Origin: Sulfobacillus thermosulfidooxidans
GTDB lineage: Bacteria; Bacillota; Sulfobacillia; Sulfobacillales; Sulfobacillaceae
DNA: 64,000 bases
Reading direction: 5' to 3'
NCBI RefSeq assembly: GCF_001280565.1
Contig: NZ_LGRO01000001.1
Span: 1,922,001 to 1,986,000 of the forward strand
A model generated the notes under the pieces. It did no database searches and was not told where the DNA came from. It was given only the letters and a program-made list of their open reading frames with translations. Of this stretch, positions 11,729 to 50,783 are shown in pieces. Each line of letters begins with the position of its first letter. Within the stretch, counting starts at the first letter, position 1. Position numbers and translations under genes: made by a program.

Positions 11729-11780
11729 AAAAAAGCCTGGGAGACTCCCAAGACCGCTGTCTTGATGAAATCTCCCAGGC
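11729..11780 (-). terminator. Terminator of the guanidine riboswitch
   Basis: On the minus strand GCCTGGGAGA (11780-11771) pairs with TCTCCCAGGC (11744-11735), followed by six U (11734-11729). The 5' arm is also the 3' end of the aptamer core, so ligand-bound aptamer and terminator exclude each other. This predicts an ON switch by antitermination. Confidence 0.85.
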
Positions 11781-11860
11781 TTTTATCCTTCCGTGTAGCT
11801 CAACATCGAGCCGTTTGCTCTTGGACCTGTCCTAGTATTCCTAGCGGAACCCTAGCAAAC
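11771..11860 (-). ncRNA. Guanidine-I (ykkC) riboswitch
   Basis: Read on the minus strand, the conserved ykkC core appears in order: CTAGGGTTCCG (11855-11845), GGTCCAAGAGC (11827-11817), ACACGG (11796-11791) and AAAAGCCTGGGAGA (11784-11771). This is the class that binds guanidinium. It lies 15-25 bases downstream of a strong promoter and upstream of the DUF1989-carboxylase operon, whose products degrade guanidine. Terminator overlap is described separately. Confidence 0.93.
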
Positions 11861-11880
11861 CTTTGATGAAATTTGTGGTT

Positions 11881-28394: not shown

Positions 28395-28944
28395 TTATCC
28401 CGAGGGTCTAGGGGGCACCTGCGTGTAAATCGTGTCCGTAAAACCTAATGCGGCCAAAATGGCCGCCACCGATTGGGTATGAACCGCCGGAACAAAGAGT
28501 TGACGGGTCTGGGCATCCAGCGGCACGACAATCAGTCCGCGCAGATGATGTAACACCTCCTGCCCGGTGGGCCGCGCCAACAGACCGCGAGTCGGCGTGG
28601 GAAGGGGCGGGGCCTGCCGGGCCCGACGTTCGATGAGACTGAGCACCAACGCGGCGAGCAAGAGCACATAACCTAGGGCTTCCACCCGTTCCGGCTTGTG
28701 CACATAGAGCGCATCCACAAAGGCCGGGTCTTTTACAAAGCGAAAACGGTGTTCGATGACCGTCTGGCCTTTGTATTCTTCGAGTAATCGGCGGGCATCA
28801 AAGGAGGAGGCCGGCAGATTGGTGATTAAGACAAACGTCGCCGCCCGGTCCTGTGCCGCCTGCACGCGTTGCGCATCGACTGCCCCAATGGTGGGATGGA
28901 CCCGGTATACCGTGGTGGTAGCCGGTTCGGGGGCATCGTGGCGG
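28395..28944 (-). pseudogene. IS1634-type transposase, C-terminal fragment
   Basis: A readable frame of about 180 codons with the C-terminal part of an IS4-superfamily (IS1634-like) DDE transposase: NLPASSFDARRLLEEYKGQ, TVIEHRFRFVKDP with the catalytic Glu region, and LGYVLLLAALVLSLIERR. The first two thirds are missing. Upstream the frame runs straight into 16S rRNA sequence at about 28945. It is higher in GC than its neighbours. It is inactive as it stands. Confidence 0.75.
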
Positions 28945-29481
<537 letters not shown>

Positions 29482-47792: not shown

Positions 47793-49013
47793 ATGCTAAT
47801 GACGGTTGAAGAAGCCCAACAACGGATATTGTCGCATCTCCCTCCTGTAATGCCCACAGAACGTGTGCCATTGCTTCAGGCATTAGGACGAGTATTAGCC
47901 GAAGAAATTCGGAGCGACGAAGATATCCCAGGCTTCACCAACAGTTCGATGGATGGATATGCGATTTTGTCACAGGATGTCCAAAATGCGCACGCTAATA
48001 ATCCCATCGCCCTCACAGTCAAAGGAACGATCGCAGCCGGTCATCCATCCTATCAGCCCGTGAACCACGGCGAGGCCTATAAAATCATGACGGGAGCCCC
48101 ATTACCTCCGGGTGCGGATGCCGTTATCCAAGTGGAATGGACCAAGAAGTTGTCGGATAATCAGATATTCGCTTTAGCACCTGTGCGTTCCGGTCAAAAT
48201 GTCCGACCTCAAGGACAAGATATTCGCCGAGGCGACATCGTCCTTCATGCTGGTCAGCCGATAAAACCTCCCATTATTGGTATTCTGGCGACCTTAGGGA
48301 TCGCCACGGTCCGCGTTTATCAACGACCCACGGTCGCGATCGTTTCTACTGGCGATGAGTTAATCGAACCAGGTTCTCCTCTAGGGCCCGGGCAAATCCG
48401 CAATTCGAACAGTTATGCGCTGGCCGCCGCCGTTCTCGCGGCCGGAGGAGAACCTTTGGTGCTCTCCCCAGCCAAAGATACCAAAGAGTCTATCCGAGCG
48501 AAGTTTCTCGAAGCAGCCGCACAAGATATCATTCTGAGTTCGGGAGGTGTCTCTGTAGGTGATTTTGATTGGGTTAAGGATGTCTTATCGGAAGAAGGCT
48601 CCTTAGATTTGTGGCGCGTAAATATGAAACCGGGGAAACCCGTCACGTTTGGTCATCTTCATGGTCATCCCTTTTTCGGATTGCCGGGCAATCCAGTGTC
48701 AGCACTCGTCACATTTGAGCTTTTCGTGCGTCCGGTCATCCGCGAAATGATGAACGTGCATCAGTGGCAGCGCACGGTTCTATCCCTCCCGTTGTATGAG
48801 TCCTTTACGGAGATTCACGATCGTCGTCATTATGTTCGGAGCCGCCTGGTGCAAAAGGGAGACCAAGTTTACGTATGGCCTTACAGCAAACAAGATTCTG
48901 CAGTACAAACTTCTTGGATTGGCGTTGAAGCACTCATGATCGTCGCTGAAAATTCAGGGCCATACCAAGCTGGTGACAAACTCCCGGTGATGTTAATTCC
49001 TGCTGATGCATAG
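47793..49013 (+). CDS. moeA: Molybdopterin molybdenumtransferase MoeA
   Basis: 406 residues. Domain landmarks of MoeA are clear: DIPGFTNSSMDGYAI, MTGAPLPPGADAVIQVE, VSTGDELIEPGSPLGPGQIR, SSGGVSVGDFDWVKD and FFGLPGNPVSALVTFELF. It inserts molybdate into adenylylated molybdopterin. No other Moco gene is nearby. The ATG at 47793 has GGAAGG 14 bases upstream, rather far. Confidence 0.96.
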   Translation: MLMTVEEAQQRILSHLPPVMPTERVPLLQALGRVLAEEIRSDEDIPGFTNSSMDGYAILSQDVQNAHANNPIALTVKGTIAAGHPSYQPVNHGEAYKIMTGAPLPPGADAVIQVEWTKKLSDNQIFALAPVRSGQNVRPQGQDIRRGDIVLHAGQPIKPPIIGILATLGIATVRVYQRPTVAIVSTGDELIEPGSPLGPGQIRNSNSYALAAAVLAAGGEPLVLSPAKDTKESIRAKFLEAAAQDIILSSGGVSVGDFDWVKDVLSEEGSLDLWRVNMKPGKPVTFGHLHGHPFFGLPGNPVSALVTFELFVRPVIREMMNVHQWQRTVLSLPLYESFTEIHDRRHYVRSRLVQKGDQVYVWPYSKQDSAVQTSWIGVEALMIVAENSGPYQAGDKLPVMLIPADA

Positions 49014-49079
49014 CCCACAACCTTCTGAACACTATGGTATAGTGCAAAATATTTAAATGAATCATAAACGAGGTGAATC

Positions 49080-49145
49080 ATGTCTCTCCCTTTGACAATT
49101 GCCCAACGTCCTCCTGGGGAGAGATCTGTCCAAAACTCGTTCTAA
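49080..49145 (+). CDS. Predicted leader peptide (21 residues) of the MFS transporter
   Basis: A short frame begins with ATG at 49080 after GAGGTG (four bases away) and ends with TAA at 49143-49145; it starts MSLPLTIAQRPPGE. Codons 2-4 form the left arm of a hairpin (49083-49090 with 49117-49124), and a terminator follows at 49164-49199. This is the layout of ribosome-stalling leaders. A two-proline PPG sequence (residues 11-13) is the kind of site that slows ribosomes. Confidence 0.5.
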   Translation: MSLPLTIAQRPPGERSVQNSF

Positions 49146-49163
49146 GAGAATTAGCCATATCCT

Positions 49164-49199
49164 CCCTTTTCGGTCATTTATCCGAAGGGGGTCTTTTTT
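49164..49199 (+). terminator. Attenuator before the MFS transporter
   Basis: CCCTTTTCGG (49164-49173) pairs with CCGAAGGGGG (49182-49191) over 10 bp with two G-U pairs, then TTTTTT (49194-49199) ends right at the ATG of the transporter (49200). The 3' arm also holds the only ribosome-binding site (AAGGGGG), so the hairpin can block both elongation and translation. Confidence 0.75.
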
Positions 49200-50387
49200 A
49201 TGCCGCAATCTCCATCTCACACATCCGTCAATCGAGACCAGTTGTGGTTACTGGCAGATAATGCCAGTGTTAGCTTAGGAGCACATTTTCGGGAAATTGC
49301 TTTGGGCCTTTTTCTTACCCACCTCAATTCCTCGCCTAAAACCTATGCCGGGTATTTCCTGTTAGGGTCTTTGCCTGGTCTCTTTATGCCCTACCTGTAT
49401 AAAAAAATCGGTCGGATGTACTCAGCAAAATCCGTTATGGCGTTCACCTATGTAATTCGCTTAATAGCCGCTATGAGCCTTTGGAGGGTCAATCATTTTA
49501 TTCTGGCCATGGCACTGCTATTTGTTTTCTCTGTCAACCGCAGCCTATATCAAGCTGCCCATGCTTCGTATTTGGCGCAATCTCATGACACGACTTCTAC
49601 TCGGCACCTCATCTCATGGCTTCGACAAACTGAGAGTCTTATTGACCTTTTCGGTCCTTTATTTGCGGGATGGCTTCTTTGGTTATGGGGTTATCGCCAG
49701 GGTTTTCTGATTAATGCGGCTTTCTATCTCATCGCCTTATTTTTCGTTGGTCAGCTCTCAAGAATTTCATCCTCAACGAATAATAGCTTAAAAGCTCAGG
49801 AGCCAATTGCCCCACGATTAGGGATGCCGCTATTTGTGATTTTGGGCGTGAGTTTTCTCGTATGGATAGGCAATGTCATGTCGATGGCCTATTTATTCCA
49901 TATTCTCCATAAAGGGCCTTTAAGTTATGGATTGATTATGACACTTTGGGGTGGATCCGGGATTTTCAGCGGTCTTTTTCTTAGGCGAATCCCTCATAGC
50001 GGGCTGCCAAGATTCCTGGCCATGTGGTTTGCAGTATTGGCTGTTGCATGGTTTATGATTTCGCACGATATTGGCTATGCATTGTTTTGTGGTGCGACAG
50101 TTCTGATTGGAATGGGTTGGTGGATAATCCAGGACAGTCTCACGACGATGGTTTTAACGTCTCAATCCGGGCTATCGGCAGCCTTATCGCGGACTCGACT
50201 GCAAGCATTCGATGAGATGGGGTCAATCCTTGGCATGCTGGTAATCGTGCTTTTTCCATCTCGGGCACTTCATATCCAGCTGATTTTTCACATTCTCGCA
50301 CTATGCGCGTTTGTTTTGGCTGGAGCATTACTCATCTATGCGGTCATAATCCCCAGGCACGGACCTTCACCGGATTTAGGACACTAA
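49200..50387 (+). CDS. MFS transporter, probable drug exporter
   Basis: 395 residues with about twelve hydrophobic helices and the MFS layout: LYKKIGRMYSAKS in the loop after helix 2, and ISRI..NN central loop. Its N-terminus resembles the MFS group of small drug exporters, but no drug can be named. The gene starts immediately after an attenuator hairpin and a leader peptide (separate entries), which suggests induction by a ribosome-targeting or translation-stalling agent. It is followed by the riboflavin operon's promoter on the same strand. Confidence 0.75.
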   Translation: MPQSPSHTSVNRDQLWLLADNASVSLGAHFREIALGLFLTHLNSSPKTYAGYFLLGSLPGLFMPYLYKKIGRMYSAKSVMAFTYVIRLIAAMSLWRVNHFILAMALLFVFSVNRSLYQAAHASYLAQSHDTTSTRHLISWLRQTESLIDLFGPLFAGWLLWLWGYRQGFLINAAFYLIALFFVGQLSRISSSTNNSLKAQEPIAPRLGMPLFVILGVSFLVWIGNVMSMAYLFHILHKGPLSYGLIMTLWGGSGIFSGLFLRRIPHSGLPRFLAMWFAVLAVAWFMISHDIGYALFCGATVLIGMGWWIIQDSLTTMVLTSQSGLSAALSRTRLQAFDEMGSILGMLVIVLFPSRALHIQLIFHILALCAFVLAGALLIYAVIIPRHGPSPDLGH

Positions 50388-50561: not shown

Positions 50562-50578
50562 AAGAATGTCATAAAACC

Positions 50579-50711
50579 TTCGGGGCGTGGTGAGAGGTTA
50601 TTCCTCAATTCCCGACCGGCGGTGATCTCACCAATGTGAGTAGCCCGCGAGCCGCAAGGCAGGAGACCGGTGTGAATCCGGCGCCGACAGTACAGTCTGG
50701 ATGGGAGAAGG
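50579..50711 (+). ncRNA. FMN riboswitch (RFN element)
   Basis: The conserved RFN core is readable: GGGGCGTGGTGAGAGG, ATTCCCGACCGGCGGTGA, AGCCCGCGAGCC, GGAGACCGGTG and GCGCCGACAGTACAGTCTGG ending in GGGAGAAGG. Terminator and ribD follow. FMN binding should stop transcription of the riboflavin genes. Confidence 0.97.
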
Positions 50712-50742
50712 TTAAGCCTATTTTGGCTTATACAATTTTTCC

Positions 50743-50768
50743 ATCCCCCGAATTTGGGGGATTTTTTT
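50743..50768 (+). terminator. Terminator of the FMN riboswitch
   Basis: ATCCCCC (50743-50749) pairs with GGGGGAT (50756-50762) with a six-base loop, then a run of T to 50768. The ribD ribosome-binding site (GGGGGGA) follows at once, so only read-through transcripts can be translated. Confidence 0.88.
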
Positions 50769-50783
50769 ATGGGGGGAAGACGG

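Follow-up and report, generated by a model that had tools for sequence, protein, structure and literature searches.

In Sulfobacillus thermosulfidooxidans, the gene of an MFS exporter is preceded by what is probably a ribosome-mediated transcription attenuator that at the same time sequesters the ribosome-binding site of the exporter, as can be judged from the sequence elements, their conservation, the coding signature of the leader and the folding outcome. The element looks like a new attenuator of the known antibiotic-responsive kind (mefE, vmlR, bmrB). It lies in a window of 64,000 nucleotides, the whole stretch of DNA analysed here (contig NZ_LGRO01000001.1), and all coordinates below refer to this window, in which the locus is organized as follows.

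49020-49200, plus strand: intergenic region between moeA (47793-49013) and the MFS gene (49200-50387), all on the same strand
49035-49043, plus strand: probable extended -10 promoter box, TGGTATAGT, recognised by eye
49070-49075, plus strand: leader ribosome-binding site GAGGTG, from the sequence
49080-49145, plus strand: leader ORF MSLPLTIAQRPPGERSVQNSF, 21 codons and a stop (ATG at 49080, TAA at 49143-49145)
49082-49091, plus strand: element 1, the 5' arm of hairpin 1 (anti-antiterminator), from folding, retained in part of the homologues only
49110-49115, plus strand: Pro-Pro codons of the leader; 20 of the 22 copies have an in-frame Pro just before element 2
49116-49128, plus strand: element 2, GGGGAGAGATCTG, the 3' arm of hairpin 1 and the 5' arm of the antiterminator, near-invariant
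49159-49167, plus strand: element 3, ATCCTCCCT, the antiterminator's 3' arm, which shares bases with the 5' arm of the terminator, from folding and alignment
49164-49199, plus strand: intrinsic terminator, stem 49164-49173/49182-49191, U-run 49194-49199
49185-49191, plus strand: AAGGGGG, the MFS ribosome-binding site within the 3' arm of the terminator (element 4), from the sequence
49200-50387, plus strand: MFS transporter gene, 395 aa, from Pfam MFS_1 and an AlphaFold model

The leader starts 66 bases after the end of moeA on the same strand, and the 21-codon frame with a good ribosome-binding site that a preliminary description had reported is indeed found, its ATG at 49080 standing behind GAGGTG and its TAA at 49143-49145. 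Homologues carry a GGTG, GGCG or GGAGG-type ribosome-binding site at the same position. The box at 49035-49043 is absent among the sigma-70 matches of a promoter scan; -10-like boxes occur about 25-32 nt 5' of the leader start in homologues and are clearest in L006, L008, L010 and L023. At the other end of the region, the U-run abuts the MFS ATG directly, and AAGGGGG, 8 bases 5' of this ATG, is the sole candidate ribosome-binding site visible there. The terminator thus buries the MFS ribosome-binding site in its 3' arm, as had been noted before, and the homologues of the window's own family (f1) have an identical layout, with the ribosome-binding site in arm 4.

Two mutually exclusive sets of pairings can be drawn, namely 1:2 together with 3:4 (hairpin 1 and the terminator) or 2:3 (the antiterminator). 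Hairpin 1, previously placed at 49083-49090/49117-49124, is present and slightly longer, with 10 pairs (49082-49091/49116-49125) and -17.0 kcal/mol, a stability reached by 2 of 200 shuffles. The terminator with six T (49164-49191; 10 pairs, -15.6 kcal/mol) is confirmed both by folding, with none of 200 shuffles as stable, and by a terminator scan. The alternative pairing of GGGAG (49117-49121) with CTCCC (49162-49166) also exists as described, and extends to 49116-49125/49159-49167 with -14.3 kcal/mol; by itself it is ordinary (38 of 200 shuffles as stable, z -0.95). For the whole 156-nt region, z is -3.8 and no shuffle out of 200 is as stable. Conservation in 22 homologous copies is, nevertheless, stronger support than these folding statistics.

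The homologues were collected by searching 61 whole genomes (the organism's own and 60 relatives) with the MFS protein, which was matched in 27 of them, and by reading the upstream regions, where 21 loci share the layout in front of MFS orthologues. An RNA model (R1), built from 16 of these 21 loci, added L047 (genome G019), which gives 22 copies in total: 18 of f1, the copy in the window included, and four divergent ones of a sister family (f2: L017, L018, L020, L021), which were recognised by eye and are not reached by R1. L047 joined after the ribosome-position folds and partner swaps, and takes part only in the terminator-probability and upstream-sequence analyses. In all 22 cases the gene that immediately follows is the same MFS gene; its product is 69% identical to that of the window in the nearest homologue and 26-27% in the f2 genes with the element. 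Among the 34 genomes of the family, R1 matches 18, once per genome and each time at the MFS gene, while in the class it matches 20 of 154 genomes, the two extra matches (L049 and L050, E 0.002-0.007) being weak and located before another gene, an ABC-F gene; we treat these two as similar in design to the MFS attenuator. A U-run of at least 5 T follows the stem in 18 of 18 f1 copies, and L018 of f2 keeps the hairpin with no proper U-run.

Several MFS matches have no copy. These are the genes of G017 (a fragment with a stop) and G028 (where the contig ends within the gene), the distant matches in G044 and G053, and the genes of G036 and G037, which are present with the upstream element absent. 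By locus, the complete MFS relatives with no such element upstream are L019 and L022. In G001, the leader and the MFS gene are both broken. A scan of named genomes with the single MFS protein found no match, and with alignment A2 it found 21 loci; the group falls in Sulfobacillus (S. harzensis, S. benefaciens and S. acidophilus bins) and in Bacillota bins. Since the upstream neighbour genes vary from genome to genome and the element and the MFS gene remain together, the element travels with the MFS gene.

A known RNA family or riboswitch was also sought in Rfam, and nothing convincing was found. Rfam 15 gave no match at the gathering cut-off for 49050-49200, and at E up to 1 eight homologous loci gave sub-threshold matches only, besides one FMN riboswitch; one of the sub-threshold matches, RF02837 (E 0.18), overlaps the element in L014. 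Elsewhere in the window, an FMN riboswitch lies before a ribD-like gene (50572-50771), and the terminator-like stem at 50743-50762 has a T-run leading straight into an ATG, a fused terminator and start like that of the MFS leader. The window also contains a Guanidine-I riboswitch (11770-11866, minus strand), a CRISPR array of 14 repeats of the CRISPR-DR2 type (514-1405) and a truncated 16S rRNA gene (28908-29481, minus strand) that consists of the first ~530 bases followed by unrelated sequence.

The leader looks translated, to judge from the retained ribosome-binding site and start codon, with ATG, GTG and TTG interchanging among the copies, and from an excess of third-position variation. Conservation of the leader codons in relatives had been proposed as a check: in codons 2-12 the third position varies by 0.61 versus 0.39 and 0.39 (within-codon permutation p 0.004), and in codons 13-20 the values are 0.31 versus 0.31 and 0.26 (p 0.36). 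Of the 10 copies with a 37-nt spacing between start and GGGAG, 9 entered this test, other spacings not being codon-alignable; L002 was left out as near-identical to L001, and the trend is the same with L002 included. Because the third-position excess is confined to codons 2-12, these codons appear to behave as coding sequence and codons 13-20 as RNA. The varied frames and stops at element 2 fit such RNA-like behaviour: the frame through element 2 is that of the window in 13 of the 22 copies, the leader stops at the edge of element 2 in L007, L011 and L013 and within it in L017, and L009, L014, L021 and L047 are in another frame there. The leader of L025 is broken at codon 5, and the MFS gene of that genome is broken as well. 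A further regularity is that 20 of 22 copies (all but L021 and L025) have an in-frame Pro among the three codons preceding GGGAG, with Pro-Pro in 13 of 22, and that the Pro codon remains in frame despite the altered spacing in L009, L011, L014 and L047. The leaders contain xPP, APP or similar motifs; the RAPP/RAPG arrest peptides are known to carry an Arg-Ala-Pro-Pro/Gly motif and to arrest without a drug.

Element 2 hardly changes between copies, most of which have GGGAGMGATCTGYCY, and because of this low variation, covariation counts on the 16-row alignment A1 were not above those of shuffles. A partner-swap test was used instead on 21 copies, with swaps that ignore relatedness, and here the cognate partners beat swapped ones for 1:2 (mean -12.0 versus -10.6, p 0.0004) as well as for 2:3 (mean -13.9 versus -12.8, p 0.010). 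Furthermore, the diverged element 2 of L010 and L012 has kept good pairing with each of its two partner strands. Hairpin 1 has a z below -1 in 12 of 21 copies and shows no excess in L003, L013, L014, L020, L021 and L023; the window copy has a strong one, many others a weak one or none. In many copies (e.g. L005, L010, L012, L018), a GTTTAA-like string is kept about 20-25 nt after GGGAG, in the antiterminator loop, even where it is not the leader's stop codon, a constraint that the two pairings of element 2 do not account for.

The effect of a translating ribosome was modelled by folding each copy with everything removed up to 15 bases past the first base of the P-site codon. With the transcript extending to element 3, the probability of 2:3 in the window copy is 0.00 without a ribosome, 1.00 with the P site at codons 1-8, 0.19 at codon 9 and 0.00 from codon 10 onwards. 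In such pre-terminator transcripts of the f1 copies, 2:3 reaches at least 0.9 at every codon 1-6 in 14 of 17 (the exceptions are L008, L013 and L023), and is 0.00 from codon 10 in 17 of 17, which holds by construction because element 2 is then covered, so that the informative results are those of the early codons and of the ribosome-free state. In the latter, 11 of the 17 have a 2:3 probability of 0.5 or more. When full transcripts are folded to equilibrium, 11 of 17 f1 copies favour 2:3 at codons 1-4 (not L008, L010, L013, L015, L023 and L025). The probability of the terminator in the window copy is 0.77 without a ribosome, 0.09 at codons 1-6 and 0.77 at codons 10-13. In the f2 copies, 2:3 rises to 0.4-0.6 while element 4 is still to be transcribed, and for the most part yields to the terminator at full length, where all four form the terminator in nearly every state. 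The prediction of the ribosome-position rule is therefore robust in pre-terminator transcripts and less secure at equilibrium. The attenuation logic set out in the preliminary description gains from these results an exclusive choice between 2:3 and 3:4 that is kept in homologues, together with a rule of ribosome position; of the role that it had given to hairpin 1, what stands is a strong hairpin in the window copy, while its part as a general OFF device is not fully borne out, since 11 of 17 f1 copies form 2:3 with no ribosome present.

Combined, these elements suggest the following mechanism. RNA polymerase would start near 49050, and an undelayed ribosome on the leader would reach codons 10-12 and may lose speed there at Pro, in the window copy at Pro-Pro. 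When the Pro codon 49110-49112 occupies the A site, the ribosome extends to 49122 and only just covers GGGAG. At codons 10-12 it would cover GGGAGAGATC (element 2), leaving element 3 free for element 4, so that the 3:4 terminator could form and the transcript would presumably end in vivo immediately 5' of the MFS start codon. If the ribosome is instead detained at codons 1-8, it would cover or melt element 1 and leave element 2 free, and the 2:3 pairing would then block the terminator and allow the exporter to be transcribed. In the window copy, a lack of translation would also mean OFF, because hairpin 1 holds element 2. Many copies have only a weak hairpin 1 or none, so that a ribosome at codons 10-12, parked by the in-frame Pro, is a likelier candidate than hairpin 1 for the OFF signal that is conserved, and we propose that the Pro pause sets the OFF state.

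Control might also be mainly translational, with 3:4 hiding the MFS ribosome-binding site and termination being secondary, a reading to which we give a limited chance. No MFS ribosome-binding site other than that in arm 4 is visible in the f1 copies, and L018 keeps the hairpin without the U-run, as expected of such control, but the U-run of all 18 f1 copies speaks for termination, and in the ON fold of the window copy the freed arm 4 pairs elsewhere, leaving the ribosome-binding site still paired at 0.97. The frequency of Pro and Pro-Pro before element 2 could, furthermore, be taken to mean that these codons are themselves the sensor, of proline, charged tRNA-Pro or EF-P, as in the leaders of amino-acid operons. 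This is quite improbable: a ribosome held at Pro covers element 2 and yields the terminator, so starvation would turn the gene off, the opposite of an amino-acid attenuator, and an MFS exporter has no evident link to proline.

It is improbable, too, that the near-invariant element 2 and the GTTTAA loop form a riboswitch aptamer that binds a ligand, the ORF being incidental. Element 2 and the loop are indeed kept in the eight copies with an early stop or another frame (L007, L009, L011, L013, L014, L017, L021, L047), and codons 13-20 lack a coding signature; however, codons 2-12 have one, the start codon and ribosome-binding site are kept, Rfam offers no match, and the two pairings largely explain the constrained strand, the GTTTAA loop excepted. 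The nearness of moeA, on the same strand and 66 bases upstream of the leader, would fit a plain terminator of the moeA transcript with a chance ORF, but there is hardly any room for this reading, which is already contradicted by conservation: the copies of other genomes follow other genes, the element goes with the MFS gene and not with moeA, and promoter-like boxes lie between moeA and the leader. Transcription attenuation by the ribosome, combined with sequestration of the MFS ribosome-binding site, remains our preferred reading.

Under this preferred reading, the inducers would most likely be compounds that delay the ribosome at initiation or over the first codons, and the output would most likely be an efflux pump for them. 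By analogy to mefE, vmlR and bmrB, induction by drugs is likely, and the MFS protein would by the same analogy pump ribosome-targeting drugs. In all 18 f1 copies, codon 2 or 3 encodes Ala, Ser or Thr, and chloramphenicol and linezolid stall ribosomes best after a penultimate Ala, Ser or Thr, Ala most of all, according to the excerpted account (PMC8987054). The bases of codons 2-3 also pair in hairpin 1, so these residues may be a by-product, and a phenicol-type specificity of the leader is a guess. A combined scheme, in which the Pro pause is the OFF device, a delay before codon 9 turns the exporter ON and Ala/Ser/Thr provide phenicol- or oxazolidinone-like sensing, is put forward tentatively and is rather doubtful as a whole; if true, the leader would sense phenicol- or oxazolidinone-like compounds in acidophilic mineral-leaching bacteria.

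For the protein itself, MFS_1 is the only Pfam family to pass its cut-off (42.2 bits over 33.4), the NCBIfam search left the protein below cut-off, and it is not a member of TIGR00900 (2A0121, H+ antiporter; 24.4 bits versus a cut-off of 319.6), the group to which Mef pumps presumably belong. A sequence search of the PDB found no match. The AlphaFold model (pLDDT 84) has NorA, VMAT2 and MdfA among its nearest solved folds, which are general MFS transporters, and the modelled likeness to them does not name a substrate.

Short leader ORFs were also observed before ABC-F genes in the sister family and in some f1 genomes (L051-L056, L061, L063, L064, L077). These leaders (e.g. MVRELG, MVVRALA, MAVRQLP) lie behind a strong ribosome-binding site, the genes are ribosomal-protection-like and under NCBIfam cut-offs, and in L051 and L052 the ABC-F start follows both a hairpin that competes and a GC stem carrying a T-run; the window genome's own ABC-F gene (L075) shows no such leader by eye. 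ABC-F leaders of like logic in the sister family suggest that resistance in these bacteria relies more widely on leaders that sense the ribosome.

Searches of a literature collection on attenuation and leader peptides in Sulfobacillus found no report of leader-peptide control, those on Sulfobacillus with efflux, antibiotics and MFS gave four papers, by title none on such an attenuator, and those on proline leaders and MFS leaders found no match to the design in the search listing. The element would represent a conserved, apparently undescribed attenuator family in Sulfobacillus and relatives (acidophiles), point to one MFS family as a pump that antibiotics are likely to induce, and offer a testable rule for the way in which a pause at particular codons could establish the OFF state.

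As for what makes an attenuator, a translated short ORF upstream is indicated by sequence signs only, an exclusive antiterminator and terminator that share a strand are present, and dependence on ribosome position is found in silico only (codons 1-8 versus 10 onward in the window copy). Among known systems, lmo0919 of Listeria is a drug-inducible uORF attenuator of an ABC-F gene, and Mef is an MFS exporter, a gene type in common with the present locus. The mef(E)/mel operon of Streptococcus pneumoniae likewise has a short leader ORF and an intrinsic terminator, and a stalled ribosome breaks its first stem-loop and frees the antiterminator, as far as the excerpted report describes it (PMC4335068). 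According to the same excerpts, its leader peptide is MTASMRLR, its leader region has 327 nt and its distal repeats are A/U-rich (PMC4335068), whereas the leader RNA here is about 150 nt, encodes another peptide and ends in a terminator that bears the exporter's ribosome-binding site; as MSLPLTIAQRPPGERSVQNSF does not match MTASMRLR (PMC4335068), the leader is not in the mef(E) leader family. The bmrB-bmrCD system of Bacillus subtilis shares the exporter, leader peptide, terminator and anti-terminator, and is a drug exporter induced by lincomycin, erythromycin or chloramphenicol, but its exporter is of the ABC type and its 53-aa leader has the terminator inside the coding region, in the passages available (PMC4191407). 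Closely similar in its parts is vmlR of B. subtilis, for which the excerpted description (PMC9226507) gives a translated uORF, an anti-antiterminator, an antiterminator, an intrinsic terminator and a hairpin over the gene's ribosome-binding site. It differs in controlling an ABC-F gene and in its uORF, Met-Ile-Asn, and the hairpin over its ribosome-binding site is, in that description (PMC9226507), separate from the terminator, whereas in Sulfobacillus the two are one and the same.
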